From the NCBI RefSeq assembly GCF_000337515.1, contig NZ_AOIQ01000006.1:440265-504264 (forward strand): DNA of 64,000 nucleotides, given 5' to 3'. Origin of the DNA: Halovivax asiaticus JCM 14624 (GTDB lineage: Archaea; Halobacteriota; Halobacteria; Halobacteriales; Natrialbaceae). Numbering within the stretch: position 1 is the first letter of the stretch; every line of letters starts with the position of its first letter. Below, one piece after another: positions 1-63,912 of the stretch. The notes under the pieces were generated by a model, which worked only from the letters and a program-made list of their open reading frames with translations, had not been told where the DNA came from and made no database searches. Position numbers and translations under genes: made by a program.

Positions 1-186
1 GAAATCGGAAATTATTTTACGTGTTAACAGATACCACCTGACGATGTCCGCCAGGCTGGAACGAGTACGCAACCGACGCACGCGCAGCATCCGAGCGGTT
101 GATATTCCCCCGGAAAACCGGTCGCGAACGGCCGAGCCAGGGCGTCAGAGCGTGGTCGAACCCGATCGGGAGCCGAGGCGATTGCG

Positions 187-3436: not shown

Positions 3437-3502
3437 AATCGAACGGCTCTTTCGGACCGACGCCTTTTTAGTATGTGGGCAGCAACCACGCGATAGAATA
3501 CC

Positions 3503-7902: not shown

Positions 7903-7950
7903 GCAGTTCTATCACAACGGTTTTGTTCACTGGCTCTCTCCCTCCTAGCG

Positions 7951-8496: not shown

Positions 8497-8519
8497 CCGA
8501 AAAATCCGTTTCAAAGGCG

Positions 8520-9404
8520 CTACGGAATGAATCCCTTTTTCGCCGTCCCCTCGTCAACATCCTCCGGATCCATTTCTACAAAGTGCGAGTCACACGACTG
8601 ACACCGGTAGGTGACAACCTCGAACTCTCGACAGCAAGAGGTGGCCGTCTCCTCGTCGAACGAAACCGAGCCACCACAGGTGGGGCAGGTTTCCCAGAGC
8701 GATCGGATCGACCTGAGCAGTCTGGCGCGCTGTTCCACGGGGACGTCCAGCCAGTCGTCGCGGCTCTCCTGTAACACCTCGTGGACGGCGACGTCGACGA
8801 TGAATGCTGCTTCGGAGGGCCACTGCCGGACCCGTCGGCGGGTCTCAATCGCGGGATAGTCGTATTCGGGGACGGAGACCTCATCGGGCGTTACGTCGTA
8901 CATCTCCGCGATGAATTCGACATCGACAACTCCGTCGAACGCCGCTGCGTGTTCCTCGGCGCTCTCTTTGAACGAGGGAGTCAACGTACGTCCGTCGTCA
9001 GTTGTCTCGACGACCTCAGCATCTTGCAGGTACCGTTCCGGATCAACGCTGTGTTCCTTCCGGTACTGGATCTTCCGTACCGCATCCTCAAGCGGGTTCC
9101 CACCACCGTCAGTCAGGACGGGCGGTTCGTGTTCGAACCGTGCGAGGACGGAATCCGGAAGGTATCGCTTCGTCAACGTCGGCGTTCCGGGAACGAGATA
9201 CCCCCGGAAGTAGATTACCGCGAGCGCGAGACCGAACGTAGCCACGCCAAGCACCGGCACAGCCGTCCCGACGGCGAACCCGAAAAGGACAGCCAAACCG
9301 ACGTTGACACCGGTACACGGTGGACAGCGGTTTCTCCCGGTATAGTCGGGATCCTTGAGCGACGAGATGCCGGAGTGAATCGTCGACAGTGCTGACTTGA
9401 TCAT
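8520..9404 (-). CDS. Uncharacterised membrane protein with a C-terminal zinc ribbon
   Basis: 294 aa counted from the ATG at 9404 (MIKSALSTIHSGISS). The open frame extends upstream to 9530, but that part is basic and shadow-like. The N-terminus carries a CPPC pair and two close TM segments (VGLAVLFGFAVGTAVPVLG, VATFGLALAVIYFRGY). A long soluble region follows, ending in a treble-clef or zinc ribbon with CPTCGG and a second CQSCDS pair (about 245-280). It resembles haloarchaeal proteins with no assigned role. Metal binding is inferred from the Cys spacing. Confidence 0.72.
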   Translation of the reverse strand: MIKSALSTIHSGISSLKDPDYTGRNRCPPCTGVNVGLAVLFGFAVGTAVPVLGVATFGLALAVIYFRGYLVPGTPTLTKRYLPDSVLARFEHEPPVLTDGGGNPLEDAVRKIQYRKEHSVDPERYLQDAEVVETTDDGRTLTPSFKESAEEHAAAFDGVVDVEFIAEMYDVTPDEVSVPEYDYPAIETRRRVRQWPSEAAFIVDVAVHEVLQESRDDWLDVPVEQRARLLRSIRSLWETCPTCGGSVSFDEETATSCCREFEVVTYRCQSCDSHFVEMDPEDVDEGTAKKGFIP

Positions 9405-9552
9405 CGAATCCCCGTAAGCACGCGGACGTAAAATATGACGTGGTTTCCCAATTGCTATCTGGTCACACAGGTGTGGCAAGAGAGACCTGACGACAGAGAA
9501 CGTGAACCTCGTACGACCGTTGCTGCTCACGAAATCGCTCTCACAACGAAGC

Positions 9553-9670
9553 AGCGGGGGTAGATTTGAACTACCCCCGAGAACCTGCTCGCTTCGCTCG
9601 CAGAACCTCGATGTCGTTCAAACTACCACGTCTGAATCGGGCTGCTCGCGAATTGCTCGTAGTCAAGACG
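9553..9670 (-). repeat. Degenerate unit of the tRNA-3'-end tandem repeat
   Basis: It begins with agcgggggtagatttgaac, a slightly altered copy of the last ~20 bases of the tRNA-iMet gene (read on the opposite strand). It ends with a diverged version of the ctcgcgaatttg... tail of the two intact units. This is the most decayed of three units. Confidence 0.6.
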
Positions 9671-9784
9671 TAGCGGGAGGTAGATTTGAACCACGGTCGT
9701 TTCGCTCACTTCGTTCGCTACACTCCCTGATTCAAATCTACTCGTCGAAAGAGTGTCGCTCGCGAATTTGCCCGCGACAAAACA
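9671..9784 (-). repeat. 114-bp tandem unit beginning with a tRNA-iMet 3'-end copy
   Basis: It starts tagcgggaggtagatttgaa, identical to the 3' end of the tRNA at 9899-9973. An exact 11-base inverted repeat follows (gtagatttgaa at 9680-9690, ttcaaatctac at 9731-9741), and a further imperfect hairpin (cgctcacttcgttcgct) lies in the loop. It differs from the next unit at only about three bases. Confidence 0.85.
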
Positions 9785-9898
9785 TAGCGGGAGGTAGATT
9801 TGAACCATGGTCGTTTCGCGCACTTCGTTCGCTACACTCCCTGATTCAAATCTACTCGTCGAAAGAGTGTCGCTCGCGAATTTGCTCGCGACAAAACA
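9785..9898 (-). repeat. Second 114-bp tandem unit beginning with a tRNA-iMet 3'-end copy
   Basis: Same architecture as the unit before it: tRNA 3' end, inner hairpin, exact 11-base inverted repeat, then gctcgcgaatttgctcgcgac. It directly abuts the discriminator base of the real tRNA. Any transcript reading through the tRNA terminus would therefore carry these structures. Confidence 0.85.
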
Positions 9899-9973
9899 TA
9901 GCGGGAGGTAGATTTGAACTACCGATCTGCGGGTTATGAGCCCGCCGGAATCTCCTGGCTATCCCATCCCGCT
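9899..9973 (-). tRNA. Initiator tRNA-Met (CAU)
   Basis: Read on the minus strand, the acceptor arm AGCGGGA pairs perfectly with UCCCGCU, and the discriminator is A. The anticodon arm is GCGGG-CUCAUAA-CCCGC, so the anticodon is CAU. The T arm is GGUAG-UUCAAAU-CUACC. The A1:U72 pair and the three consecutive G:C pairs at the base of the anticodon stem are marks of an initiator rather than an elongator Met or Ile2 tRNA. No intron, and CCA is not encoded. The 3' end is duplicated downstream (9553-9898). Confidence 0.95.
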
Positions 9974-10196
9974 GACTCATGCTACCCGAGAACGACAGTT
10001 AAGGGTTGTGATTCGGGTGCCGTATGTGGGTTTGTGTCTCGATCGCTCCGCGTGTACGGACGGGCCGTCATAAAAATGGAGCGGGGCTGTTCGAGAAAGT
10101 ACTAGCAGATACTCACGGTGAATTACACAGCGCCTCGATGACTGCTCACACCCAGCAAAGAAAAAGACGCGATCGTTGGCGGAAGAGAACGACGAG

Positions 10197-10451
10197 TCAG
10201 GCCGCAGCTTCGACGACCGTAACCTCGTCGGCGTCGTAGTGTTCGACGTCCAGAAAGTGCGGAATGTACGATCTCAGTTCGTACGCCTCGCGTTCGTCTT
10301 CGGTCCCGACAGTACACCAGAGCTGGACGCGGTCGGGGCCGTGCCACTCACCCATGCGGTTGATCCCGAAACAGACCACCTCCTCGCCGTCGATCGAGAG
10401 CACGGCGTCCTTCCTGATCTCGGGGTCGCCGTGGATGATGAGTTGCTTCAT
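10197..10451 (-). CDS. HAH_0734-type conserved haloarchaeal small protein
   Basis: 84 aa from the ATG at 10451 (MKQLIIHGDPEIRKDA). The longer open frame upstream is not protein-like. It is a soluble, compact protein with alternating beta strands (VLSIDGEEVVCFGIN, DRVQLWCTVG) and an acidic end. It matches my memory of the small haloarchaeal HAH_0734 family, which has no known function. It sits divergently from the ribosomal operon, with 136 bases between the two starts. Confidence 0.75.
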   Translation of the reverse strand: MKQLIIHGDPEIRKDAVLSIDGEEVVCFGINRMGEWHGPDRVQLWCTVGTEDEREAYELRSYIPHFLDVEHYDADEVTVVEAAA

Positions 10452-10546
10452 AGTCGCTCCGTCACAGTGACAAACCGTAAGCGCTTCGGAGTGACGGAGC
10501 ATCGGTCCCCCGATGCCGTCGCGAGTCGCACGGCGAACCAAACGGG

Positions 10547-10555
10547 TTTTAAGCG
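10547..10555 (+). promoter_or_regulatory. Putative TATA box of the eL42 operon
   Basis: The AT stretch ttttaa lies in a GC-rich context about 35-40 bases before the eL42 ATG at 10588. That fits an archaeal TATA element with a short leader. Confidence 0.4.
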
Positions 10556-10587
10556 GGGGTGTCCAACTGCCGGTAAGTGAGACCGCT

Positions 10588-10872
10588 ATGCAGATGCCAC
10601 GCAGATTCAACACCTATTGCCCGCACTGCAACGAACACCACGAACACGAAGTCGAGAAGGTCCGGACCGGCCGCTCGACGGGAATGAAGAAGGTCGCCGA
10701 CAGACAACGCCGTCGCCAGACCTCAACGATCGGGAACTCCGGGAAGTTCTCGAAGGTCCCCAGTGGGAACAAACCCACGAAGAAAACCGACCTCAAGTAC
10801 CGCTGTGGCGAGTGCGGCAAGGCCCACCTCCGTGAGGGATGGCGCGCCGGCCGGCTCGAGTTCCAGGAGTGA
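10588..10872 (+). CDS. rpl44e: Large ribosomal subunit protein eL42 (L44e)
   Basis: 94 aa. It is a component of the 50S subunit near the E site. Zinc-finger cysteines C11/C14 (YCPHC) and C73/C76 (RCGECGK) flank a basic centre with [18 protein letters not shown]. The start at 10588 ([14 protein letters not shown]) matches the family; an upstream in-frame ATG at 10513 would add an unrelated leader. First gene of a tightly packed operon: eL42, eS27, aIF2-alpha, Nop10, PAC2 protein. Confidence 0.97.
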
Positions 10873-10877
10873 TTTAG

Positions 10878-11051
10878 ATGGCAGGAACATTTTACCGCGT
10901 CCGATGTGAGGATTGTGAGAACGAACAGATCGTCTTCGGCAAGGCCTCGACCGACGTCGCCTGCGCCGTCTGCGGAACGACGCTCGCCCGGCCGACCGGG
11001 GGCAAGGCCTCGATCGACCACGAGATCGTCGAACCAGTCGAGTCACGATGA
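10878..11051 (+). CDS. rps27e: Small ribosomal subunit protein eS27
   Basis: 57 aa zinc-ribbon protein of the 30S subunit, starting [17 protein letters not shown]. Metal-binding Cys10/Cys13 and Cys29/Cys32 (ACAVCG). It begins 5 bases after the eL42 stop, and its TGA overlaps the ATG of the aIF2-alpha gene (ATGA), so the two are translationally coupled. Confidence 0.97.
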
Positions 11052-11848
11052 AGTACAGCGGCTGGCCCGAATCGGGAGAGCTCGTCGTCGGCAAGATCGA
11101 CGAGATCGAAGATTTCGGCGTGTTCGTCGACCTGCAGGAGTACGAGGACAAGCGTGGCCTCGCTCACATCTCCGAGGTCGCGAGCGGCTGGATCAAGAAC
11201 GTCCGCGACCACGTCAGCGAAGGCCAGATCGCCGTCTGTAAGGTACTCGATGTCGACAAGGACGCCCAGCAAATCGACCTCTCGATCAAGGACGTCAACG
11301 ACCATCAGCGTTCCGAGAAGATCCAGGAGTGGAAGAACGAACAGAAGGCAGATAACTGGATGGAACTCGCCTTCGGTGAGGACATCGACGGCGACGCCTA
11401 CACCGCCATCGCGAACGGCCTCCTGTCGGTCCACCCAACGCTCTACGAGGCGTTCAAGGAGTCGGCGATTCACGGTACCGAGGCGCTCGACGGCAGTGGG
11501 CTGGACGACGACGATATCGAAGCGATCGTCGACACCGCACGCGAGAACGTCTCCGTCCCCTACGTCAACGTCACCGGCTACGTCGATCTCGAGAACCCAA
11601 CCGCCTCGGGCGTCGACGGCGTCAAATCGGCGCTTTCCGCCGGCGAAGGAAACGGCGAGGTGCCGGACGAGGTCGACCTCGACGTCACCTACGTCGGTGC
11701 GCCCGAATACCGGATTCAGGTCCAGGCGCCCAACTACAAGACCGCCGAAGCGGAACTCGAGGCGAGCGCCCAGCGAGCGATCACCGCCATCGAGAACGAA
11801 GGCGGCACCGGATCGTTCCACCGAGAGCGCCACACCGACGACGAATAA
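11048..11848 (+). CDS. eif2a: Translation initiation factor aIF2, alpha subunit
   Basis: 266 aa, normal length. The N-terminal S1/OB domain (about 10-80: [20 protein letters not shown], then [19 protein letters not shown]) is followed by a helical middle domain and an alpha-beta C-terminal domain that binds the gamma subunit. It works in the aIF2 heterotrimer that brings Met-tRNAi to the 30S subunit; the initiator tRNA gene is only about 1 kb away. The start overlaps the eS27 stop. Confidence 0.97.
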
Positions 11849-11872
11849 CCCCCGAAATCGCACGTTTTACCC

Positions 11873-12049
11873 GTGAAATCCGACATCCGTATCTGTCCTC
11901 GGTCGACGCACGATCGGCCAGTCTACTCGCTGACAGAGACGTGTCCCGAATGCGGCGCCGAGACTGTCAACTCCGCCCCAGCACCCTTTTCCCCCGACGA
12001 TCCATCCGGCGAGTACCGACGCGCACTTAAGCGGCGCCACCGGTCGTAG
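11873..12049 (+). CDS. nop10: Ribosome biogenesis protein Nop10
   Basis: 58 aa from a GTG start. It is a component of archaeal H/ACA guide RNPs for rRNA pseudouridylation. Recognised by KSDIRIC, the CPECG knuckle (24-28), and the conserved tail VNSAPAPFSPDDPSGEYRRALKRR. The N-terminal half of the zinc site shows a single Cys (C8). It lies 24 bases after aIF2-alpha and 3 bases before the next ATG. Confidence 0.95.
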   Translation: MKSDIRICPRSTHDRPVYSLTETCPECGAETVNSAPAPFSPDDPSGEYRRALKRRHRS

Positions 12050-51865: not shown

Positions 51866-52450
51866 CCACGTCCTGGAGAGGGGCGTCCGGGAAAGGGATA
51901 CGGCCCGGCCGACTATTGTATCGACTCACCGCGAGACAGAGGGCCGCAGAAAACCACTCGCGGCGGAACTTAATACTGAGAACTGATCGCGTCGCGTACG
52001 GGCGTGTCTCAGCGGGAGAACGGAAGCGACTACCACAGAATCCGGTCGCCATCGCCGGACGAGAAAGAAGGCACGACTCTCAGCGGACCGATACGGACGT
52101 CTCCCCACTCGTCCGCCCGGGTCGGTTGCCAGGAGTACCGTTCGCAACGACGGATGTCAGAGGCGGTTGATCGAACGGCGCCTTTCGAGCGCGTCATCGA
52201 CGGATTGTCCCTGTGACGAGACGCAGACCACCGGGTTGGTCACCTCCGTGTCCGGGTGGGTAGTTGGGACGAAAAATAGGTTCTCACGCCGCGTTTCAGA
52301 CTCAGAAACCCCGTCCGGGAAACTCGAACGGACGACGACCGGCGGTGACCCGACGATCCGGAGGTGAGTCGAACGAGGCCCCACAGCCGGTGTTTCACGG
52401 CGAGAGAGGCGGCATGCAGTTACTTTCCGACGGTGTCTGACCGTCCACGC
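51866..52450. other. Gene-free spacer between glmS and the LURP-one-like gene
   Basis: 585 bases without a gene I can support. Short frames here are Arg/Ser/Pro-rich and lack an acidic bias. One tiny frame, 52154-52216 (MSEAVDRTAPFERVIDGLSL), has reasonable composition but is only 20 aa, so I do not call it. No tRNA, no convincing hairpin cluster. A TATA-like aacttaata sits at about 51968. Confidence 0.45.
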
Positions 52451-53035
52451 ATGAGCACAGGTCGATACGGCATCGATGGCCTTGATCTCTCGGACGACAC
52501 GTACACCGTCGAACAGAATCTCGTTCGGAACAAGTACGAAGCGTTGGACGCCAGCGGAGAGACGGTTCTCGAAGGCGAACAAGAGACGTTCAAACTAACG
52601 GAGGAATTTCCGTTCGTCGACGAGAACGGCGACGCAGTGTGTACCGTAAACGCCCAACAGATTCGAGACTACAAAGGCGAGTACGTGCTCACGGACGCCC
52701 GTAGCGGCGACGATATCGTCGTTTTCGAGCACGAATACTCGGTACTCGAGCAGATTACCGGAGTCACCTGGAACATTTGTGACGCCGAGTCAGGGAGCAA
52801 ACTGGCCGAGATCACGTCCCGGAAGTTCGTCGGGCTCGTTCGACACGGGCTCCTTGGGAATCTGATCCCCCATCACTACGAGATCACGGACGTCGACGGC
52901 ACGCAGGTGGGGACGATCTCCGGTCGACTCTCGATGAAAGATCGGTACGACATCCAGATCGCCGACGCGAGCACGGTCTCGCGAGAGCTGGTCGTAGCCG
53001 CCGCGATACTTATCGACGCCATCGAAGGAAATTGA
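52451..53035 (+). CDS. LURP-one-related / scramblase-like protein
   Basis: 194 aa from the ATG at 52451 (MSTGRYGIDGLDLSDDTYT). Tubby-like beta-barrel pattern: VEQNLVRNKYEALDASGETV, LTEEFPFVDENGDAVCTVNAQ, then KFVGLVRHGLLGN and YEITDVDGTQVGTISGRLS, and a final hydrophobic helix (LVVAAAILIDAIEG). The LOR/scramblase family binds phospholipids or membranes; function in archaea is unknown. Confidence 0.85.
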   Translation: MSTGRYGIDGLDLSDDTYTVEQNLVRNKYEALDASGETVLEGEQETFKLTEEFPFVDENGDAVCTVNAQQIRDYKGEYVLTDARSGDDIVVFEHEYSVLEQITGVTWNICDAESGSKLAEITSRKFVGLVRHGLLGNLIPHHYEITDVDGTQVGTISGRLSMKDRYDIQIADASTVSRELVVAAAILIDAIEGN

Positions 53036-53178
53036 GTCTCCCGACCGAGACGGAGACTGGCGCAGTTCGACGGGCGAAGAGACCACCGGGCCGTCCGGAT
53101 CCGATCGATTGTTTCTCGGCCGGAGATCGGTCGGGCCACTTTACGGGTATACCGGCCGACCGTGCGAACGATCCGATC

Positions 53179-53667
53179 ATGACCAGTAAGAACGGTTCCG
53201 ACAGCAGTTCGCTCTCCAGACGAACGTTTCTCGCGGCCAGTGGAACGACGGTAGTGGCGACGACGGCCGGCTGTACGGAGCTGCTGAATTTCATCGGTGA
53301 CAAGTTGCTGGAAGAGGTAAACGTCTTCAACGAAACCGACATGCGCGTCGCCGGGTCGATCTCCGTCAGTGGTCCCGCTGGTGATACTGCACTCGACGAG
53401 TCGTTCGACATCGCCTCGTCGGAAAGCGAAGCTAGCGACGACGACCAGTCCGTGGCAGTATACGACGACGTCTGGGACGGGTCGGGATCGTACGAAGTTG
53501 CCGTCGAACTGACCGACGTCGAAATCGATGGGGAATCACAGGCGAGCGCAACGGTAGCGATCGACAACCCCGACGAGCAGATGCTCGCCGTCGGACTGGG
53601 TACCGGAGAGACCGACGCCCCGATCGACTTCAGTGTCGGAGAGAGCCTCTCGGATTTCGGCCGCTAG
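53179..53667 (+). CDS. Tat lipoprotein, function unknown
   Basis: 162 aa from the ATG at 53179 (MTSKNGSDSSSLSRRTFLA). Tat signal with lipobox TTAGC. The mature part is a predicted beta sandwich, starting LLEEVNVFNETDMRVAGSIS and continuing EVAVELTDVEIDGESQASATVAID. It looks like a haloarchaeal surface protein of the kind that follows small extracytoplasmic beta folds. Start chosen so that the twin-Arg sits at residues 14-15. Confidence 0.78.
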   Translation: MTSKNGSDSSSLSRRTFLAASGTTVVATTAGCTELLNFIGDKLLEEVNVFNETDMRVAGSISVSGPAGDTALDESFDIASSESEASDDDQSVAVYDDVWDGSGSYEVAVELTDVEIDGESQASATVAIDNPDEQMLAVGLGTGETDAPIDFSVGESLSDFGR

Positions 53668-53746
53668 AATCGTCGCCGGCTGCTGCCGGCGGCCGAACTA
53701 AATCGGGCCGGGCCACGTTCGGGGCAACGACGTGCGGATGAGCTTT

Positions 53747-54322
53747 TTATCGGCTTTCGCGCGCGATATCGTCGAACGCATCGAAGAGTTCCGTCGCGTT
53801 TCCGAGAAGCCGTCGTGCGCGTCCTTCGAGGCGCTGTGAACGCTCTTCAGTGCGTTGGTACTCGTCGTGTGCCTCCCGTCGATCGGCCGGGAGTTCGGCT
53901 GCGATCACCTGGCGCTTGGCCTCGACACTGAAGTACTCGCTGAGGGTTGCGTACCCGAGGATCGTACACTGCTGGGTTACGGCCGCTCGGACGTCCTCGC
54001 GGTCGACCGGTTTGCACAGGTAGTCGTCGAAGGGCATATCGAGGATGTCGAAGGTGGGATCGATCGCCGTGACCATGATGACGCGACCGGCAAAGTCCAT
54101 CGCGTCGAGTTCGTCGAGTACGTCGTCGCCCGACAACCCGGGCATGTGCCGATCGAGGAGAACCACGTCGATAGCAGAGTCGCGGACGGTCTCGAGAGCT
54201 GACTCGCCGTCGTACGCCGTTTTGGTCTCACACAGCCCACGTAATCGGAGCGCGTACGCGTCCGCGACCTCCCGCTCGTCGTCCACCACCAGCGCGTGCG
54301 GGAGTTCCGCCTGTTCCTCCAT
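53747..54322 (-). CDS. HalX-domain response regulator
   Basis: 191 aa. Receiver domain 1-120 with DD at 14-15, phospho-acceptor Asp57 (VVLLDRHMPG) and Lys104 (YLCKPVD). The C-terminal HalX domain (about 125-188, LPADRREAHDEYQRTEERSQ) is a helical module found in haloarchaeal receivers; no DNA-binding domain is present. Candidate partner for one of the kinases downstream, but it faces the other way. Confidence 0.92.
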   Translation of the reverse strand: MEEQAELPHALVVDDEREVADAYALRLRGLCETKTAYDGESALETVRDSAIDVVLLDRHMPGLSGDDVLDELDAMDFAGRVIMVTAIDPTFDILDMPFDDYLCKPVDREDVRAAVTQQCTILGYATLSEYFSVEAKRQVIAAELPADRREAHDEYQRTEERSQRLEGRARRLLGNATELFDAFDDIARESR

Positions 54323-54516
54323 CGATCGAAGTAGTGGTGTGACTTCGCATAAATGTCTGTCCTTCGTCTCTCGTCGAGCGTCACCATCCCTTCCCCCTCA
54401 TCCCGCGCGAGGAGTGGTAACTGGACAGGTCTGTATAGCTAGTGTCGGCGGCGTGGCGGAGTCTCGGTAGCTAGCTACCATCGATACCACCAACGGGGCG
54501 TTTTCTCGACATACCG

Positions 54517-54933
54517 ATGGCGAGCGAATTAGTCCCCCCCCGTGACCAAGCAACGGAAGCGCCGTGCGCGGCGACCGAAGGCGATGAATGGCGACACGAA
54601 AATCCGACGGCGCTGCTCCAACAACTCGGTGACGAGTACACGCGAGCCGCGTTCGAGGCCGTTCTCGACCGACCTCGAAGCGGGCGAGCGGTCGCGGCGG
54701 CGACCGACATGTCTCGACCGACGGCGTTCCGACGGCTCAACGCACTCGTCGAACTCGGCTTGCTGGAGACGGACCGTCGGATCGACGGGGAGGACGGCCA
54801 CCACCACAAACGGTACCGCGCCGTCATCGATGGGTTTTCGGTACGGATCGAGGACGGCGACATCGACATCGTCATCGAATCCGACACCTCGGCAGAACCC
54901 GCGCGGATCGAGCGACGACCGGAGTGTGACTGA
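54517..54933 (+). CDS. Winged-HTH regulator, paralogue of the gene at 63459
   Basis: 138 aa. wHTH: ALLQQLGDEYTRAAFEAVLD, recognition helix TDMSRPTAFRRLNALVELGL, wing EDGHHHKRYRAVIDGFSVRI. The last 30 residues are acidic. The same core (TDMSRPT...RRL...DGHH...R) is in the gene at 63459, and both sit beside sensor kinases. Followed by two kinases on the same strand after 161 bases. Confidence 0.87.
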   Translation: MASELVPPRDQATEAPCAATEGDEWRHENPTALLQQLGDEYTRAAFEAVLDRPRSGRAVAAATDMSRPTAFRRLNALVELGLLETDRRIDGEDGHHHKRYRAVIDGFSVRIEDGDIDIVIESDTSAEPARIERRPECD

Positions 54934-55094
54934 CCGAGCACGCTCGGTCCGGCGGTCGGGTCCAATCCCCTGCATCCAAGTGGGAGGCCGAGACTACGGG
55001 ACGCATGCCACGGCGATCGATCCGCGGCCCGGGAGCCGCCGTGGCGTCGACTCCGACGACCCAGGACTGATGTGAAACGGGTCGAGAACGACAC

Positions 55095-56744
55095 ATGGAC
55101 TCTCTCACCTTCCTCCGCATCGGGATCGCCACGGTCGCTGCGTTCGTGGCGGTCGCGCTCATCGTGGTCCTCCGTCCGTATCGCGAGCGCGCCAGCGCTC
55201 GAGCGCTCCTCGGCGTCGGCGCGACGATGGCGGTGGGTTCGGCCCTGCACCTGCTCGTCGCCGATCTCACACCACCGAACGCAGCGCTCGACGTAACCGG
55301 CTGGGACCTCGAGCCGACGGCCTGGATCGTGGTCGGGTCGACTACTACGGTGATCGCCGGCGGGGTGTGGGTGCTGTTCGTCTTTCGATACACTGGTCGG
55401 TCGCGACGCGTCCGGCAGCTGACCGCCGCGATCGTCGCCGGAATCGATTTCGGAGCCGTCGCCGTCGCGACGGTCGCTCTCACGGCGGCCTCGGCGATCG
55501 CCTACCAGGCCCTCACGATGGCGTTCCTCCTCGTCGGCTTTCTGATCACGATCGGCGTGTTCCTGCTCCTGTGGCCGTCGATCGGACAACACGCGGTCCA
55601 GATCCGTGAACCCCTGACGCTCTCCGCCGGCGCTATCGGACTGCTGTCCGGGAGTTTCGTTGCGCAGATCTTCGAGCGTCCCCTCCTGTTCCCGGCGCTG
55701 TGGGCCGTCGCTGGCGGACTGTTTCTGGTCGCCGTCGTCCGCTACCCGGTCTTCGAGACGCCGCCGTCCGCACGCGTGCTCGGTCGTGATCGAGTCGTCG
55801 AGGAACTGTCCGACGGCGTTCTCATCGTCGATCGGCGGGGTCGAATTCGCGATTGCAATCCTGCCGCGAAGCGCCTGTTCGGCCTCGAACGGGCGTCGAT
55901 CCGGGAGAAACGGCTCGAGTCGATCTTCCCGACCGCCATCGATCCGAGGGAGCTGGCGACGAAGGCGGAACCGCTCCGGGTCGAACTGTCGGACGGGACG
56001 ACGCTGAACGTAACCGCCGATCCCATTACCGACGGCCGGAATCGGCAGTTCGGCTCACTCTTATTCTGTACGGACGTGACCAAGAGAAAGCGACGGGAGG
56101 ACCAATCGACGCTGCTTAGCCGGTTTCTCGTCGAGGAGATCCGGGAACGGATGGTCGAGGTGGCCGACGGGGCAAGACATGCACAGCGGACGGGAGCCGA
56201 CGACGTGACCGCTGCAGCTCGAATCTGGGAGCGGACGACCGTCCTGACGAGCCTCGTCGCCCAGACCCGGTCGATCGAGCGCGCCATCGCCGAGGACGGC
56301 GTTCGTGGAAACCGGCGGATCGACCCCCATCCAGTCCTGCGTGAGATCCGCGATTCGATTGCCACCGACGACGGGCCACGTATCGCGATCGACGGCCCGG
56401 AAGCGCCGATCGACACGACAGTCAATCGGGCGCTGCTACGGTCGCTTCTCGAACCGGTTGTCAGAGACGCGTACGAACACGCTTCGACGCGAGTCGAGGT
56501 CGGCGTCGATGGCGACGCGCCCCACGTTCGGATCGTCGACGATCGGCCGGATGCGAGCACCGAGACGGAGGACGAACGCGAAACCGGGTCACCGTTGACC
56601 GTCACGCGACTGGCGCTCGAACAACTCGGGAGCCGCCTCTCCGTAGAACGGGACGGCGCCGGTCGCCGCGTGGTCGTCGAACTGCCAACCGACCGCCCGG
56701 ACCGGGTGGCTAGCGCCGCACCTGACGGGGGTGGAAGTCGGTGA
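55095..56744 (+). CDS. 7TM-PAS degenerate histidine kinase (likely pseudokinase)
   Basis: 549 aa. 7TM sensor module (about 5-220, with FVFRYTGRSRRVRQ), PAS domain (about 232-330: DGVLIVDRRGRIRDCNPAAKRLFG), then a HisKA-like helix in which the expected His is Glu347 (LLSRFLVEEIRERM against LNRVVRHNLRND in the next gene). The ATPase-like region is also degenerate: the N-box is EPVVRDAYEHAS without its Asn, and the G1 position reads VDDRPDAS rather than DxGxG. It overlaps the start of the intact kinase at 56741 by 4 bases, so they are co-translated. Confidence 0.85.
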   Translation: MDSLTFLRIGIATVAAFVAVALIVVLRPYRERASARALLGVGATMAVGSALHLLVADLTPPNAALDVTGWDLEPTAWIVVGSTTTVIAGGVWVLFVFRYTGRSRRVRQLTAAIVAGIDFGAVAVATVALTAASAIAYQALTMAFLLVGFLITIGVFLLLWPSIGQHAVQIREPLTLSAGAIGLLSGSFVAQIFERPLLFPALWAVAGGLFLVAVVRYPVFETPPSARVLGRDRVVEELSDGVLIVDRRGRIRDCNPAAKRLFGLERASIREKRLESIFPTAIDPRELATKAEPLRVELSDGTTLNVTADPITDGRNRQFGSLLFCTDVTKRKRREDQSTLLSRFLVEEIRERMVEVADGARHAQRTGADDVTAAARIWERTTVLTSLVAQTRSIERAIAEDGVRGNRRIDPHPVLREIRDSIATDDGPRIAIDGPEAPIDTTVNRALLRSLLEPVVRDAYEHASTRVEVGVDGDAPHVRIVDDRPDASTETEDERETGSPLTVTRLALEQLGSRLSVERDGAGRRVVVELPTDRPDRVASAAPDGGGSR

Positions 56745-58420
56745 TTCACCTCGACTGGGCGACGCTCGGGGCTGTCGTGTTGGGCGCCGGCGTCCTCGTC
56801 GCGAGCCGAACCGCACAACGGCACGAACGCCCCGGCGTGATACCCTTCGCACTGTTGGTCATCCTGCTGGCCGGGCTCAGCGCGGTGATCGCACTCGGGC
56901 GCTCCGGGCTGGTGTTGATCCAACTCGGAGCCGGGAAGGATCTGCTCCTGATCGGCGGGTACGGGTTCGCGTCGTTGCTGTGGGTCGGCTTCGTCTTCGA
57001 GTATACGGGACGGGGACCGGTGCTCACGCCGCGTCGCTGGGGCGGGATCGTCTTCCTCGGCGGACTACTCGTCGCGAGCACGACCGTGACCTGGGGACAA
57101 CAAACGGGCCGGTTTGAGTTCGCCCTGCTCGGACAGCTTTCGTACCTTACGACGTTCGTACTGCAGGTGGCCGTCTTCTCGTTCGGCCTGCTCGGCGTCG
57201 TACTGATCGGTCGCTCGACGATCACCTACGACGATCTGGCGCGCGGGTCGGCGGCGTCACTCGTAGTCGCCGGGATCGGTATCACGTTGCTCCCCCTCTC
57301 GATACGGTACGGACGGCAGTTACCCGGAACGTCGATGTATTCGGTCGTCCTGTGGCAGCTCCTGGCCGTCGCCGGCGCGCTCGCCTGGACAGCGATCGGT
57401 ACCGACGCGTTCGAACGAGGAGCCGGCGCGGGACATCTCGCCAGAGAGACGGCCCTCGACGCGATGTCCGTCCCCGTTGTCGTCGTCGATCGAGCTGACC
57501 GGTTACTGGACGTGAACCGGGCTGCAGTGGAAACCTTCTCGGTCGATCGGACGCAACTCAGGGACGAGTCACTCACGGACGTCATTGACGTACCTGAAGA
57601 ACCTCCCGGAGGGCAGGCAATCTCGCTTCGGACGACAGCCGGGCGACGGGAATTCATCGTCGAACAGAGCGAGATCACCGACACGGACGGGGAGACGCTC
57701 GGTCGCGCCTACCGGTTTCGTGACGTCACGGAACGAGAAACCAGCGAACAGCGGATACAGGTCTTGAACAGGGTCGTCCGACACAATCTGCGGAACGATC
57801 TGGATGCGATCCGCGGCTTCGCCGAACCGATCCGGAACGACGCGTTCCCGGCCGACGAGGCGACGCAGTATTACGGACGGATCGAGACGATCGCAACCGG
57901 GCTCGTCGACCTCGCAAACGCGGTCGCGCGATCCGAACGCATACTCACGGAACCGCGCCTCGAACGGGAGCGGTGTGATCTCGTCGAAATCGCGGAACGA
58001 GCCGTCGACAGGTCATCCGACGCGGATATCACGCTGGAGGCTTCGGCCGACGTCGAGATCCGATCGGATCCGGACGCAGTCCGGATCGTGCTCGCCGAAC
58101 TGATCGACAACGCCGTGACACACGCGAGCCAAGAGCCACAATCGGTGACGATCCGCGTCGATCCCACCACCGCCGGTGGGCGGATCGAGGTGCGTGACGA
58201 TGGCCCGGGAATCCCGTCGGAAGAGCGGGCCGTGCTCGTCGACGGGGAGGAGACGCCGATCAAACACGGCAGCGGGATCGGGCTCTGGCTGGTCTACTGG
58301 ACCGTCACGCGATTAGGAGGGGAGCTGTCGTTCGAAGAGCGAGAGCCGCACGGGAGTATCGTCGTCGTCGATTTTCCGGATTTCGGTTCAGCGAGTACCC
58401 ACGGGTCGACGGATGCGTGA
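56741..58420 (+). CDS. 7TM-PAS sensor histidine kinase
   Basis: 559 aa from a GTG start inside the stop of the previous gene (GTGA). 7TM module (about 8-222, GFVFEYTGRGPVLTPRRW), PAS domain (about 238-335), HisKA with His348 (NRVVRHNLRND), and HATPase with ELIDNAVTHAS, DDGPGI and GSGIGLWLVYW. All boxes are intact. The 7TM part is alignable with that of the degenerate kinase, which suggests the pair arose by duplication. Confidence 0.92.
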   Translation: MIHLDWATLGAVVLGAGVLVASRTAQRHERPGVIPFALLVILLAGLSAVIALGRSGLVLIQLGAGKDLLLIGGYGFASLLWVGFVFEYTGRGPVLTPRRWGGIVFLGGLLVASTTVTWGQQTGRFEFALLGQLSYLTTFVLQVAVFSFGLLGVVLIGRSTITYDDLARGSAASLVVAGIGITLLPLSIRYGRQLPGTSMYSVVLWQLLAVAGALAWTAIGTDAFERGAGAGHLARETALDAMSVPVVVVDRADRLLDVNRAAVETFSVDRTQLRDESLTDVIDVPEEPPGGQAISLRTTAGRREFIVEQSEITDTDGETLGRAYRFRDVTERETSEQRIQVLNRVVRHNLRNDLDAIRGFAEPIRNDAFPADEATQYYGRIETIATGLVDLANAVARSERILTEPRLERERCDLVEIAERAVDRSSDADITLEASADVEIRSDPDAVRIVLAELIDNAVTHASQEPQSVTIRVDPTTAGGRIEVRDDGPGIPSEERAVLVDGEETPIKHGSGIGLWLVYWTVTRLGGELSFEEREPHGSIVVVDFPDFGSASTHGSTDA

Positions 58421-58502
58421 CGCAGCGTGATAACCGCGCTTATGGTTCTCGTCTCCCAACGCATCGGGTACCGATCGACAAATCGATCTCCGCCACCGAC
58501 CA

Positions 58503-59855
58503 ATGACACGTCTTCACCGTCGTCGGTTTCTCGAACTCGGTGCGGGAGCGGCGGCCGTCGCACTCGGCGGCTGTTTCGGATCCGACGACGAAGCGGCGTC
58601 CTACGCGAAGTGGGTGCCGGCGAGAACCGGCGGCGTCCACGTCGGCTATCTGGATTTCAGTATCACGACCGAAGTACGCGAGGGCGACGAACTGTTGCCT
58701 TTGATCCTCCCTGCGAACGCGACCGAGCGTACCGAGCACATCCTGACAGATATGTCGATTCTCGATAGCGTCGAGGATCCGTTGCTCACCTGGCCGATCG
58801 AGGTCGGCGGCCAGTTGGTCGGAGGAGCCGCCCTTGGCATCGCCGCATCCGGGCTCGGCTACCTCATCGATCCGGAGCGGCCTGACCAGGGGGTAGACGA
58901 GCTGTTCACGGCAGACGCCGTCGCGATCGGACGGGGAACGATCGATCTCGACGAAGCCACGGAGACCCTCCGATCGGGGTCCGAGGGAGTCTTCGGTGAC
59001 GTTCCGTTTGAACGAACCGGATCCATCGGCGATTTCAGCCTGTATGCGCCGACGAGCGGTGATCTAGACGGCGTCACAGCACTCAGCGAGACGACCGTCA
59101 TGGTCGCCGACACTCGCGAGGAGATCCAGCGTATCGTCGAGACCACGCGAGGAGATCGCGCCGGCGCACTCCAGGAATCGGACGTGTTCGAGTGGCTACA
59201 GGAGACAGCCGGAAGCGGTCACATTGCGGGCGGGTGGGTCGGACCGATCGAGCTCGAGAGCCACTTTATGAGCGACCCGTCCGAACGGCCCGCGGCCGAC
59301 CTCCTCCGGGCAGCCGACAACGTGCTCGCCTCGTTAACGGTGACCGCCGACGACAGTGAGGTCACGGCCAATCTCGCCGCGCAGCGGGGGTCTCTCGACG
59401 ACGAGACGGCGCGCGAGTTCGACCGCCGATTCGGGTCCGCGAGCGTAGAGGGGACGACGACAGTCGACGGAAACCGCGTTACCGCCAGTGGGACCTACAC
59501 GGAAGACGTCCTCGATATCGAGTTCTCCCAACCCGATCAGTCGACACCGCCCGACGACGCGGATCCGGGGGAACCCGTCGATCCGCCCCCCGAAGTCGCT
59601 GCTGCCGTTCCCGAGAAAGGATTCGGGTTCACCTACCTGGACGAAGGCGGACGAGTCGAAGTATCGTTCCCCGCTGGATTCGACGCCGAGGAAGTAACGC
59701 TGACTGCCGTCGACCAGGATCACGAGGTGTCGACGACGTCGGCGGAGCACCTTCGCTCGATGACGGTGAATGTCGATCCGGACGGCGATACCGTGCTCGT
59801 GACGGTTACCGTCGACGGGACGTCCGGCGTCGTTGCTCGCTGGGAAGGCCCCTGA
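58503..59855 (+). CDS. Large Tat lipoprotein, function unknown
   Basis: 450 aa. RRR at 6-8 and lipobox GGC with Cys24. The mature protein begins SYAKWVPARTGGVHVGYLDF and has two domains: a mixed alpha-beta part to about residue 340, then an acidic/Pro linker (QSTPPDDADPGEPVDPPPE), then a beta domain FGFTYLDEGGRVEVSFPAG. It resembles haloarchaeal surface proteins with no assigned role. It is 82 bases downstream of the kinase pair and may be the extracellular partner of their sensor; this is inference. Confidence 0.8.
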   Translation: MTRLHRRRFLELGAGAAAVALGGCFGSDDEAASYAKWVPARTGGVHVGYLDFSITTEVREGDELLPLILPANATERTEHILTDMSILDSVEDPLLTWPIEVGGQLVGGAALGIAASGLGYLIDPERPDQGVDELFTADAVAIGRGTIDLDEATETLRSGSEGVFGDVPFERTGSIGDFSLYAPTSGDLDGVTALSETTVMVADTREEIQRIVETTRGDRAGALQESDVFEWLQETAGSGHIAGGWVGPIELESHFMSDPSERPAADLLRAADNVLASLTVTADDSEVTANLAAQRGSLDDETAREFDRRFGSASVEGTTTVDGNRVTASGTYTEDVLDIEFSQPDQSTPPDDADPGEPVDPPPEVAAAVPEKGFGFTYLDEGGRVEVSFPAGFDAEEVTLTAVDQDHEVSTTSAEHLRSMTVNVDPDGDTVLVTVTVDGTSGVVARWEGP

Positions 59856-59945
59856 CGCCGTCGGTCCGATCGAGAGTTAGGATGCGGAGCGGCGGCCCCT
59901 CTCGACGGTCCCGCCGCTGCTTTACTCCGAATAGCCCTGCGTCAC

Positions 59946-60401
59946 TCAGGGTCGCACGACGATCGTGTTGCCGACCCGGTCGCCGAGTCGCCGCTCCGAC
60001 TTCGAGACGGCGAGGGTCACGATCCCGACCAGATAGAAGGCGGGAAGCCAGTCGACGAGGCGGAAGACGTTCCGGAGCAGCGAGCCCAGAAACGACGGCG
60101 CCGAGCCGTCCGGCCGAGTCACCTCGATGCTGACGAGGTACTTGCCGAGGGTCTTGCCCCACCGCCACTCCAGGACCGTGTGATACAGTATCGAGATGGC
60201 AAGCCAGAGCCCCAGCCCCGCTAGCGCCGGGCCGCCGTCGAGATTGGTTTCGATCCGCGTGCTCGAGGTCTGTAAGTCGCCGGTTACGAGGCCGACCGCC
60301 GGGATGGCTACCATGAACAGTCCGATCCAGACGACCGAGTCGATGGCCATCGCGACGCCGCGGATGCCCACGCCACACCGTCGTTGCGTATTCGATGTCA
60401 T
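59946..60401 (-). CDS. RDD-family membrane protein
   Basis: 151 aa from the ATG at 60401 (MTSNTQRRCGVGIRGVAMA). RDD features: RGVAMAIDSVVWIGLF at the first TM, then the motif RWGKTLGKYLVSIEVTRPDG. A second TM pair follows at VDWLPAFYLVGIVTLAVS, and the C-terminus is RRLGDRVGNTIVV. Possibly a transporter; some RDD proteins act in sodium or polyol transport. Function unproven. Confidence 0.87.
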   Translation of the reverse strand: MTSNTQRRCGVGIRGVAMAIDSVVWIGLFMVAIPAVGLVTGDLQTSSTRIETNLDGGPALAGLGLWLAISILYHTVLEWRWGKTLGKYLVSIEVTRPDGSAPSFLGSLLRNVFRLVDWLPAFYLVGIVTLAVSKSERRLGDRVGNTIVVRP

Positions 60402-60589
60402 TTCACGTCGGAGGGATGCAGTACGGTCGTAAAGTACGGCCGCGCGTGTTTCTGCTGGCGAAACGCGCCGACCGTCGTGGGGCGACGGGTCCACGGTGGA
60501 TTCTCGCGGAATCGAGTCCGACCGAGCGAGACGAACCGTCCGAACGGATCACGTATCCTTAACTATCGGCCGGCAGTCACTCGAAGACG

Positions 60590-62152
60590 ATGGACACGGG
60601 GGTCGAGCACGCACCGATCGGGGTTCTGGAGGCGAGTCACGACGGCGTCGTTAGTGACGTGAACGAAACCGCCGCGACCATGCTCGACGTGGATCCGGAC
60701 GCCGCCACGGGCGAACCGATCGGCGCCGTCGTTCCGGCGTCCGTCGACGCGTCCGTCCCGGAGGCGTTCGAGACGGCCCTCGAGACCCCAGTGTCCGCCG
60801 AGGAGTTCTACCCCGAACTGGATCGATGGCTCTCGGTCGACATCAGTCCAACGAGCGACGCTGTCTACGTCTACCTCCGGGACGTGACCGACGAGCGCCG
60901 ACGCACACAGCGGCTGGAGTCGCTCCAATCTGATCTCCACCGACTGACGATCGGGAACGAACTCATCGCGGACGTCCTCGGGGAACTCGTCCGGGCCTCC
61001 ACACGCGAGGAGATCGCCCGAAGCATCTGTCAGGAACTGGGTGAGACCGACATTTACGAATTCGCCTGGGTCGGCGAACGGGCGGTCGGCTCCGACGAGA
61101 TCGTGCGTCGGGCCGCTGCCGGAACGACCGGGCGCACGCTAGAGCGGATCGATACCGCGCTCGACGGTAATGTAGCGCTGCCCGAATCGCGCGCGATCGA
61201 GCGCGGCGAACCGACCGTTATCCGGTCGCTCGGTGAGAACGGCTCCGTCCCGGAACGGATCCGACGGGCGGCGTTCGCCGACGGGCTGGGATCGCTACTG
61301 GCCGTGCCACTGACCTACGGATCGAGCGTGTACGGCATCGTCGGCGTGTACGCGGCCGAGCGGGACGCGTTCTCGGAACGCGAGCGCAAGAGCTTCGGGA
61401 CCGTCGGTAAGATGGCCGGGTTCGCCATCAACGCGACCCGCAACCGGTCGTTGCTCTCGGCCGACCGGGTCGTCGAGCTCACGTTCCAGTTGTCGGATCC
61501 CGCAGCCCCGTTCGTCACGACGGTCGCCGAAACGAACGCGAGGCTCGACGTGGCCGGCGCGATCCCGCAGGGCGAGCACCTCCTCTGTTACGTCGACGCC
61601 GAGACCGCGACTCCCACCGCGGAGGAAATCGCCGCCGTGCTGGCCGAGCACGAGGCGGTCGTCGAGACGCGGACGATCACCGACCGCGACGCCGACGGCT
61701 CGATCGAAGTACGCCAGCGCACCGAGACGCCCCTCGGGCACCTCCTCAGCCAGGGCGGGACCGTCCGGTCGGCCACGTTCGGCGGCGACGACAATCGCGT
61801 CGTCGTCGACCTCCCACCGTCGGAAGACGTCCGCCGAATCGCGGACGCGATCACGCGCCGCTACGACGCTGCGGTGCTCGCCAAACGGGAGCGGCGACCG
61901 GACGAGCGATCGACCCGGGAGTTCCGGAACGCGCTGACCGATCGGCTGACCGATCGCCAGGAGGACGCCCTTCGCACCGCGTTCTTCGCTGCGTACTTCG
62001 AATCCCCGCGCGGGAGTTCCGCGGCGGAAGTCGCAGACGCCCTCGGGATCACCGGTCCGACGTTACTCCATCATCTCCGGGCCGGCCAGCGGAAACTCCT
62101 GGAAGAACTCTTCGAGGTGACCGATCGACCGTCGGCCGTCGATCGTCCGTGA
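60590..62152 (+). CDS. Bat-type transcriptional activator (PAS-GAF-HTH_10)
   Basis: 520 aa. PAS domain (about 5-105, ASHDGVVSDVNETAATML), GAF domain (about 120-285, LLAVPLTYGSSVYGIVGVYA), a BAT regulatory domain (about 290-430), and the C-terminal HTH_10 (about 450-510: LTDRQEDALRTAFFAAYFES, SAAEVADALGITGPTLLHHL). Related to the bacterio-opsin activator; such proteins respond to light or oxygen cues. No bop or carotenoid gene is in the window. Confidence 0.92.
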   Translation: MDTGVEHAPIGVLEASHDGVVSDVNETAATMLDVDPDAATGEPIGAVVPASVDASVPEAFETALETPVSAEEFYPELDRWLSVDISPTSDAVYVYLRDVTDERRRTQRLESLQSDLHRLTIGNELIADVLGELVRASTREEIARSICQELGETDIYEFAWVGERAVGSDEIVRRAAAGTTGRTLERIDTALDGNVALPESRAIERGEPTVIRSLGENGSVPERIRRAAFADGLGSLLAVPLTYGSSVYGIVGVYAAERDAFSERERKSFGTVGKMAGFAINATRNRSLLSADRVVELTFQLSDPAAPFVTTVAETNARLDVAGAIPQGEHLLCYVDAETATPTAEEIAAVLAEHEAVVETRTITDRDADGSIEVRQRTETPLGHLLSQGGTVRSATFGGDDNRVVVDLPPSEDVRRIADAITRRYDAAVLAKRERRPDERSTREFRNALTDRLTDRQEDALRTAFFAAYFESPRGSSAAEVADALGITGPTLLHHLRAGQRKLLEELFEVTDRPSAVDRP

Positions 62153-62235
62153 AGTAAATCCGAGACCTCGGATGGAAGTTCCGGGCTGCCGCCGGTTCGC
62201 GCCGACGAAATTGGCCCGCGCCTGAAGACGCAGGG

Positions 62236-63246
62236 CTAGGCGACATTCTCACACCCGATTTCGAGACCGGTGATCTCGAAGCGAGCGCCATCGGCCGCGG
62301 ATTCGGTGATCGTGATTTCCCACCCGTGCAGATCGACGATTCGGCCGACGATCGACAGGCCGAGGCCGGTCCCATGGTCGTCTGTGCTGAAACCGGGATC
62401 GAAGACCTGCTCCCGTCGACCCGGCTGAATCCCGCGGCCGTCGTCAGCAACGTAAAATCCCGCGGCCTCGGCGAGGGGGCCCACGGTCACCGTCACGTCC
62501 ACCCCGCCGTGCTCGACAGCATTCCGAAAGAGATTCTCGAAGAGCCGGCCGAGGCGGTTGGAATCCGCGACGACAGTGGGCAACGACCCGTCGACGGCGA
62601 AGTCGGCGTCGTGGGTCTCGACGGTCCCCCACGCCGCCGCCGCAGCAGACGCCAAATCGACCCGCTCGTCGGGTTGGACGACGGCAGCGCCCCTGGCCAA
62701 CGTCAGCACATCCTCGACGATCCGTTCCATCCGGTCGTGGGCGCGGGCGACGTGTTCGAAGTGCTTGTCCTCGCCGGATTCTCGAGCGGCCCGCAAACGG
62801 GCGTTGGCAACGTCCAACGGATTCCGGAGGTCGTGACTGATCACGCTCGCCACGTGATCCAGACCAATCTCGCCCGCCGCCCGGGTTGCCCCCGTCGGAA
62901 GCGGGCTGAACAGGAACACCCCGTCGGCGTTCTCGTCTGCGGAGACCACTCGCAGGAGGTACCGATCACGAGAACCCGCCGTAGTCGACCGCGTTCCGGA
63001 CTCGATGATGAGGGTGTCGTCGGTCGTTCCGATCTCGCCCGGGTCGTCCGGACCCAGCACGACCGACAGTTCGAGCGTTTCGAACACCGAGGCCGCCGGT
63101 TCGCCCGCTTCCACCGATCCGAAGGTCAGTTCGAAGCCCTCGTTCACCCATTCGACGATCGGCGTCCCATCGTCAGTGGCAACCTGACAGACCGGGTCGG
63201 GCCACTGTCCGATGGCGGACGAGTGGGTTATCCCGTCGTCGGTCAT
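62236..63246 (-). CDS. Soluble PAS sensor histidine kinase
   Basis: 336 aa from the ATG at 63246 (MTDDGITHSSAIGQWPDPV); the extension upstream is Arg/Pro-rich and not protein-like. PAS-like domain (15-120), HisKA with His138 (SVISHDLRNPLDVAN), HATPase with FENLFRNAVEHGG, DDGRGIQ and GTGLGLSIV. The kinase core is closely similar to that of the 7TM kinase at 36854, but the 7TM module is absent. Divergent from a wHTH gene that begins 213 bases away. Confidence 0.9.
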   Translation of the reverse strand: MTDDGITHSSAIGQWPDPVCQVATDDGTPIVEWVNEGFELTFGSVEAGEPAASVFETLELSVVLGPDDPGEIGTTDDTLIIESGTRSTTAGSRDRYLLRVVSADENADGVFLFSPLPTGATRAAGEIGLDHVASVISHDLRNPLDVANARLRAARESGEDKHFEHVARAHDRMERIVEDVLTLARGAAVVQPDERVDLASAAAAAWGTVETHDADFAVDGSLPTVVADSNRLGRLFENLFRNAVEHGGVDVTVTVGPLAEAAGFYVADDGRGIQPGRREQVFDPGFSTDDHGTGLGLSIVGRIVDLHGWEITITESAADGARFEITGLEIGCENVA

Positions 63247-63458
63247 GGCGTGGGTGGTGCTCGGTCCGGACCCCACAATACCCCGACCAGGAGCGATCTT
63301 GGCGACGTCATCTATCGATGGCGATAGGTTCGATTCGGCCCGTCCACGTAAAGTCCCGAAGGCTAGTAATACAGACTCCGGCGTCGGGTACTGCCGCGGC
63401 GATCGCTTCGGCATACCTAGCCCCGGAATCCAGGGAGGGACAGCACGAACGCCCGGCT

Positions 63459-63878
63459 ATGAACGGGCGACAATCGAAACGCGCGGACGAGCCGACACCC
63501 CGCGACCACGGGCACGACGGCCAGCCCGAGTTAGCGGACATATCGACCGAAACGGTCTGTGACCTACTCGGGGATAGGTACGCCCGCCGGCTTCTGACGT
63601 TGCTGGTCGAACGGCCACGGACCGGTCGTGAGCTTATCGAGGAGACCGACATGTCCCGACCGACGGTGTACAGACGGCTCGGTCGGTTACGCACGAGTGG
63701 ACTCGTCCGAACGGAGACGGAACTCGATACCGATGGACACCATCGAAACCGATTCTACGCCACCGTCAACGGCTGCGACTTCGCCGTCGGAGACACGGGA
63801 ATCGAGACGCGTGTTCGGCCCTCGGACGATGACCGAAGTGGACGCGGCGGGTCGATCACGAGCGGACACGACGAGTAA
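63459..63878 (+). CDS. Winged-HTH regulator, paralogue of the gene at 54517
   Basis: 139 aa from the ATG at 63459 (MNGRQSKRADEPTPRDHGH). wHTH: CDLLGDRYARRLLTLLVERP, recognition helix TDMSRPTVYRRLGRLRTSGL, wing TDGHHRNRFYATVNGCDFAV. A disordered acidic tail follows. Head-to-head with the soluble kinase, with a shared control region at about 63247-63458. Confidence 0.86.
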   Translation: MNGRQSKRADEPTPRDHGHDGQPELADISTETVCDLLGDRYARRLLTLLVERPRTGRELIEETDMSRPTVYRRLGRLRTSGLVRTETELDTDGHHRNRFYATVNGCDFAVGDTGIETRVRPSDDDRSGRGGSITSGHDE

Positions 63879-63912
63879 GCAAATAGCCCTCGCTAGCAGC
63901 TACGACGGTCGC

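Follow-up and report, generated by a model that had tools for sequence, protein, structure and literature searches.

A conserved haloarchaeal pseudo-histidine kinase encoded together with an intact 7TM-PAS kinase, its candidate partner in signalling

Introduction

Among the closest described counterparts to the system reported here is DivL of Caulobacter, a pseudo-histidine kinase that acts on the kinase CckA. The system itself is a pair of adjoining genes, termed A and B for simplicity, which encode a degenerate and an intact histidine kinase, respectively, and lie in a stretch of 64,000 nucleotides from the haloarchaeon Halovivax asiaticus JCM 14624 (contig NZ_AOIQ01000006.1, positions 440,265 to 504,264; this whole stretch is hereafter the window). 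Like A, DivL has a histidine kinase fold, a phospho-acceptor that is replaced family-wide, and, as presumed for A, an active kinase as its client (PMC4211667). Unlike A, from which the glycines of the ATP-binding motifs G1 and G2 are lost, DivL into which a His had been introduced at the site was phosphorylated in an ATP-dependent manner under stimulation by DivK~P (PMC4211667). In addition, A is a haloarchaeal protein with seven transmembrane helices (7TM) and a PAS domain, and its gene is coupled to that of its presumed client. Orthology with DivL does not hold, since the acceptor residue of A is Glu, Asp or Gly and not the Tyr of DivL (or Ala), and since a single PAS domain, not several, stands behind the 7TM region.

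Pseudo-histidine kinases have so far been described as a few bacterial cases, studied singly. RetS of Pseudomonas is a hybrid kinase whose gene is not coupled to gacS, which sets it apart from A and B. The parallel is that RetS and GacS exemplify control of one kinase by another through hetero-oligomerisation (cited in PMC9491836). A further presumed parallel is the ChrS pseudokinase of Corynebacterium, an inactive paralogue that promotes signalling by the active HrrS; unlike the natural and old A family, it arose by a laboratory frameshift and keeps its His (PMC9491836). In archaea, a 2018 census describes histidine kinase-like proteins with a HisKA domain and no HATPase domain, which, like A, are kinase-built sensors without kinase activity (PMC5847659). 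These proteins are not of the A type, as they keep the His and have no recognizable ATPase domain, whereas A is the reverse, with no His and a degenerate ATPase-domain fold (PMC5847659). No report of an archaeal pseudokinase-kinase pair was found in the literature searched, which mostly did not extend to subscription papers. A motility regulator of the BAT/HalX type has been reported from Haloferax (PMC7824242).

Results

The A-B gene pair of Halovivax asiaticus

The two genes and the residues on which the comparison turns are as follows (window positions).

55095-56744, + strand: A, pseudo-histidine kinase of 549 amino acids with seven membrane helices, PAS, a dimerization and histidine phosphotransfer (DHp) bundle and a degenerate catalytic and ATP-binding (CA) domain
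56741-58420, + strand: B, intact 7TM-PAS histidine kinase of 559 amino acids, GTG start
56133-56135, + strand: codon of Glu347 of A, the alignment partner of the phospho-acceptor His of B
57782-57784, + strand: codon of His348 of B, the predicted phospho-acceptor
56466-56468, + strand: codon of Asp458 of A, opposite the N-box Asn of B in the alignment
56741-56744, + strand: GTGA, a 4-base overlap of the B start over the A stop

A and B of the window are 26% identical over 477 aligned columns. The initial annotation, which was made from the sequence alone, had noted the four-base overlap, Glu347 of A opposite His348 of B, and the loss from A of the N-box Asn and of G1. The alignment agrees on each of these points: Asp458 occupies the N-box position, and the G1 motif reads DDRPDAS in A versus DDGPGIP in B. 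The G2 glycines, absent from the initial annotation, are likewise gone from A. The HATPase_c profile reflects this degeneration, scoring 14.3 bits with A and 66 bits with B (Pfam cut-off 26.4). A thus lacks every sequence mark of an active HisKA-type kinase (acceptor His, N-box Asn, and G1/G2 glycines) and keeps the structural ones, a two-helix DHp bundle and a CA fold, as judged from a predicted model and Foldseek. B retains the His, N-box, G1, and G2, and is predicted to be active.

Assignment of both proteins to the 7TM kinase class holds for the models, each of which has seven membrane helices, and falls short in the Pfam HisKA_7TM profile (PF16927), with 22.2 bits for A and 18.7 bits for B against a gathering cut-off of 28.6. 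The 7TM label used here therefore rests on predicted helices and a weak profile match. NCBIfam offers no curated name for A, giving above its cut-off only a generic PAS domain.

Distribution of the pair

Three sources were used: 149 relatives were searched, named genome contigs were scanned, and 392 genomes belonging to the order were queried with a profile. Together these yielded 31 distinct A genes, the one in the window included. An intact kinase B directly follows A in 30 of the 31; the remaining A (L107) is truncated by a contig end and was dropped from the pair set. The resulting 30 A-B pairs come from 29 haloarchaeal genomes, with L045, L048, L050, L084, L100, and L101 left out as duplicates of genomes already included. 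The contig scan contributed 11 loci, including Halorhabdus amylolytica (64%), three Halorientalis species, Salinarchaeum laminariae, Natronococcus pandeyae, Natronorubrum halalkaliphilum, and a Haloarchaeobius. Spread beyond the haloarchaea was judged from a single genome-contig scan with two peptide patterns. An in-frame ATG or GTG overlaps the A stop by 4 bases in 26/30 pairs, and the other four have start overlaps of 1, 1, 7, and 8 bases.

In the 392 genomes, the A profile gave 23 rows in 22 genomes at 275 bits or more, and the B profile gave 22 rows at 447 bits or more, the next score being 372; both cuts were chosen after the gaps in score were visible. All 22 clear B rows sit immediately behind an A, matching 22 of the 23 A rows, and the 23rd is an A at a contig end. 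Thus, in this sample every uncut A has a B and every clear B has an A, and independent occurrence of the two genes, which would have spoken against a functional pair, was not seen. Since scoring in each profile search was confined to the top three candidates of a genome, further copies may be missed. Three additional pairs (L096-L098) fall below both cuts, with A scores of 192-208 bits and B scores of 338-348 bits that lie among those of single kinases; at least one unclassified match, G337:C22 at 201.5 bits, lies among these A scores. With 30 pairs that share the His loss and a recurring overlap, the conservation of the pair across haloarchaea, about which the initial annotation had asked, is borne out.

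No plasmid record matched more than 80% of A, and the four partial matches covered 27-31%. In a Halococcaceae genome bin (L046, 8455-10129), an A-B pair is followed after about 3 kb by an intact single 7TM kinase that most resembles the one of L039. This bin (G176) has a second A-B pair (L106).

Acceptor site and ATP-binding motifs across the family

Across the 30 pairs, the acceptor column of A holds Glu in 12, Asp in 9, Gly in 8, and a deletion in one. His occurs there in 0/30 A proteins, as opposed to 30/30 B proteins and 17/17 related single kinases. Outgroup 7TM kinases likewise have His wherever their DHp could be aligned (L002 has no aligned DHp). The N-box column of A contains Asp in 24 proteins, Ala and Gly in 2 each, and Arg and Gln in 1 each, while Asn is found in all B proteins and all singles; the G1/G2 glycine columns hold scattered residues in A and hardly vary in B. 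The tree implies a single loss of His, after which the replacing residue switched at least seven times among Glu, Asp, and Gly. The conserved feature of the site is therefore the lack of His and not charge. The Glu itself, whose conservation was in question, is confined to the 12 proteins given above.

The surroundings of the site have changed as well. Residues flanking the acceptor in A are mostly Val, Ala, Thr, or Ser, versus the Arg-His-Asn of kinases. Shortly after the acceptor, A has residues of its own, an Arg (23/30) and a Met (23/30), where B has Asp and Leu. The helix that follows the acceptor is the docking place of response regulators, and in A it departs from the form common to B and the single kinases.

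Domain conservation, selection, and predicted structure

To the initial observation that the sensor and PAS parts of A look intact, the comparison adds that they are as conserved as those of B, and that the catalytic part is loosened. Mean pairwise identities among A proteins and among B proteins, respectively, are 0.33 and 0.32 for the 7TM region, 0.40 and 0.41 for PAS, 0.39 and 0.53 for DHp, and 0.26 and 0.48 for CA (29 pairs; L049, whose A is without a DHp stretch, was excluded here and from the folding alignments). The CA domain also varies in length, from 112 to 167 residues in A versus 136 to 144 in B. The identity matrices of A and B correlate with r 0.96, although joint inheritance would push this value up for linked genes of any kind. 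Within one locus, A and B share from about 17% identity (7TM) to 25% (PAS, DHp).

Ratios of nonsynonymous to synonymous substitution (dN/dS) for A were obtained from the 14 closest comparisons by a simple method, which makes them useful for comparison only. They range over 0.22-0.36 for 7TM, 0.15-0.42 for PAS, 0.13-0.50 for DHp, and 0.31-0.64 for CA. Every domain is below 1 and CA is highest or near-highest. From these sequence comparisons, A is under purifying selection, and a functional partner is therefore a sensible reading. A local pseudogene or sequencing artefact was ruled out by the 30 open pairs and by dN/dS under 1.

Column hydrophobicity of A follows that of B, with r of 0.76 and 0.77 for the DHp helices and 0.82 for CA, values that become much lower if the columns are shifted by 1-5. 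This common pattern suggests that the fold, including the bundle that forms the dimer, persists in A with the chemistry gone. In agreement, the structure model of A, built with 29 sequences (mean predicted local distance difference test score, pLDDT, 80.6), contains seven membrane helices, PAS, DHp, and CA. Its DHp helices span residues 329-366 and 370-399, with Glu347 in the first. The predicted template modelling score of 0.47 is low, so that the relative placement of the domains is unreliable. The B model is similar (pLDDT 78.8, seven membrane helices), and Foldseek matched the A model to the solved histidine kinases WalK, ThkA, CpxA, and HK853.

Phylogeny and origin of the pair

A careful tree built on the 7TM and PAS columns only recovered A as one clade (99/99), and so did a tree with outgroups (SH-aLRT, the Shimodaira-Hasegawa-like approximate likelihood ratio test, 99). 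For B, the quick outgroup tree gave one clade (93), which is missing from the careful tree; there, constraining B to be monophyletic was not rejected (p value of the approximately unbiased test, p-AU, 0.494). In the outgroup tree, which was made by a quick method with ten pairs left out, has weak deep branches, and had no root inferred, B groups with intact single 7TM kinases and A stands apart, not as the sister of B. A recent tandem duplication of B is unsupported, given that the A clade is separate from both B and the intact single kinases. At most loci the subclade of A corresponds to that of B, so that the pair probably formed once and was passed on jointly. On the sequence evidence, the His loss is one old event, fixed across the A family; with this family-wide loss under selection, A resembles DivL as a pseudokinase.

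Proposed role of A and alternatives

Taken together, these data make it likely that A is a pseudo-histidine kinase dedicated to acting with B. Its most likely place is in an A-B heterodimer, of which it would be the sensory half. Having neither ATP motifs nor an acceptor, A would be unable to draw phosphate from ATP by the usual route and would offer no site for it. The case for a sensory protomer is that A is kept, is coupled to B, and retains its sensor, PAS, and bundle, the acceptor His and ATP-binding motifs being lost. In the pathway that we propose, translational coupling would favour equal amounts of the two proteins, and A would join B through DHp and PAS as a purely sensory, allosteric second protomer. 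Input to the 7TM and PAS parts of A would set the switch of B between autophosphorylation and an off state, with the sign of regulation inferred. B would perform all of the chemistry, so autophosphorylation would necessarily occur within B, in cis, and the phosphate would pass to a putative target, the REC-HalX regulator of the same cluster.

Several observations weigh against this proposal. The low identity between A and B of one locus, about 17-25%, means that A may instead homodimerize. With outgroups A is not the sister of B, so a heterodimer would not simply be the heir of a recent homodimer. Gene pairing is no proof of physical pairing. Finally, A retains a CA fold that a purely sensory subunit might have dropped.

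The alternative that fares best, though we consider it unlikely, is that A homodimerizes in the manner of DivL, as a transmitter turned reader (e.g., of the HalX regulator in its phosphorylated state), with B modulated where the two homodimers touch. DivL, with Tyr at the acceptor and without kinase or phosphatase activity, still dimerizes and binds DivK~P (PMC4211667). A retains DHp and CA folds in the model, and the Arg and Met conserved soon after its acceptor site would suit a protein with a reader function of its own. However, it is not evident that the same regulator would dock on a post-acceptor helix that departs from the B and single-kinase form, and strict one-to-one coupling better fits a stoichiometric complex.

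Less probable still is that A is a dominant-negative dampener. If B acts in trans, an A-B dimer would be dead by construction, as A is without acceptor and ATP motifs, and the A:B ratio, which coupling would fix, would set the number of live B homodimers. Equal synthesis, however, would leave little active B, and a mere dampener does not need 7TM and PAS parts as conserved as those of B.

The initial annotation had proposed a permanently charged pseudo-acceptor that controls the partner; such a residue would mimic phospho-His. Of the 29 A proteins in which the site is occupied, 21 indeed carry Glu or Asp, but Gly in the other 8, the repeated switches on the tree, and the loss of the Arg-His-Asn surroundings make this very improbable, and charge is rejected as the common working principle. 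That A is a functionless, decaying duplicate is scarcely credible: its catalytic domain evolves quickly and is of uneven length, yet frames are open in 30 pairs of several families, dN/dS is well under 1, the origin is single and old, and transfer was probably joint.

Returning to the A-B heterodimer, a wider proposal, which we hold tentatively and with a little less than even confidence, is that an obligate asymmetric sensor kinase arose once in haloarchaea. Each dimer would contain two different 7TM-PAS receptors, one of them non-catalytic, and would merge two signals before a single phosphorylation; the module of receptor pair, HalX regulator, winged helix-turn-helix (wHTH) regulator, second kinase, and BAT protein would spread between families as one piece. 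The A family is natural, goes back to one old loss that became fixed, has its presumed client next door, and offers 30 pairs for comparison. It thus allows tests of a dead kinase half as the sensor of a live one, of action in cis, and of the merging of two inputs. The occurrence of the dead half with a working partner suggests that it has been retained to steer that partner.

Neighbouring genes

The pair is embedded in a signalling cluster with the following members (window positions; homologue counts refer to the 30 pairs, around some of which the available stretches are short and cut by contig ends, such as the 6.3 kb of L106).

53747-54322, - strand: REC-HalX response regulator, putative phosphorylation target; homologue near 23/30 pairs
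54517-54933, + strand: winged-helix regulator; homologue near 22/30 pairs
58503-59855, + strand: lipoprotein with twin-arginine-like signal and lipobox (by eye); homologue near 15/30 pairs
59946-60494, - strand: RDD-family membrane protein; near 11/30 pairs
60590-62152, + strand: BAT-type regulator, PAS-GAF-BAT-HTH_10; near 22/30 pairs
62236-63414, - strand: second histidine kinase (soluble), HisKA and HATPase_c above cut-off; near 21/30 pairs

The HalX-bearing protein belongs to its class by both domains (REC 63.3 and HalX 44.6 bits; cut-offs 30.2 and 23.2). The cluster contains a second intact-looking kinase and one REC-bearing regulator only, so both kinases may feed the single HalX regulator.

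At two loci, L039 and L099, the same cluster surrounds one intact 7TM kinase of the same architecture, and there is no A. At the other 12 single-kinase loci, the HalX regulator together with the wHTH protein is found in 5/12, the soluble kinase in 6/12, and the BAT protein in 6/12; single kinases L108, L110, L117, and L119 have the same architecture and neighbours, the soluble-kinase match near L110 being weak. The presence of the cluster around single 7TM kinases indicates that the module commonly runs on one, and that the pair is a variant.

The initial annotation had suggested sensing through the large lipoprotein encoded next. Its homologues, near half of the pairs, occur near 0/14 intact-single-kinase loci, which points to an accessory of some lineages and leaves such sensing weakly supported; as an obligate part it was rejected, being absent near the other half of the pairs, some of whose stretches are contig-cut. 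At 53032-53667 lies a small putative lipoprotein gene, possibly another accessory; three distant A-B pairs (L093-L095) have relatives of it nearby. In L038 (Natronorubrum, 2559-5093) and L039 (the single-kinase genome, 519-3035), the cluster adjoins a large transporter-like gene (MMPL-like by eye) that replaces the lipoprotein and RDD genes there.

Probable transfer of the cluster-bearing segment

The cluster occupies one segment of the window.

51866-63912, no strand: cluster-bearing segment of about 12 kb, missing between the same two flanking genes in four congeners

The flanking genes (glmS-like and epimerase-like by sequence look) are about 0.2-1.8 kb apart in the four congeners and about 12 kb apart in the window genome. 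The window and its nearest congener, about 91-94% identical in DNA, align up to 51865 and again from 63913. Since the four congeners lack the segment as a whole, A and B seem to have moved together. In both trees, A and B of the window group with a Halorhabdus pair, and gene order matches Halorhabdus (L041) from the HalX regulator to the second HTH (helix-turn-helix) gene. The whole module of about 12 kb probably moved en bloc, with a Halorhabdus-like donor as the simplest account; the alternative to acquisition is loss of the segment in all four congeners. No integrase was seen among the genes scanned in 51866-63912. Elsewhere, positions 1-12000 of the window have a G+C content of 0.59-0.60 versus 0.62-0.66 in the rest, and the first genes of the window resemble, by eye, a peptide-type ABC transporter.

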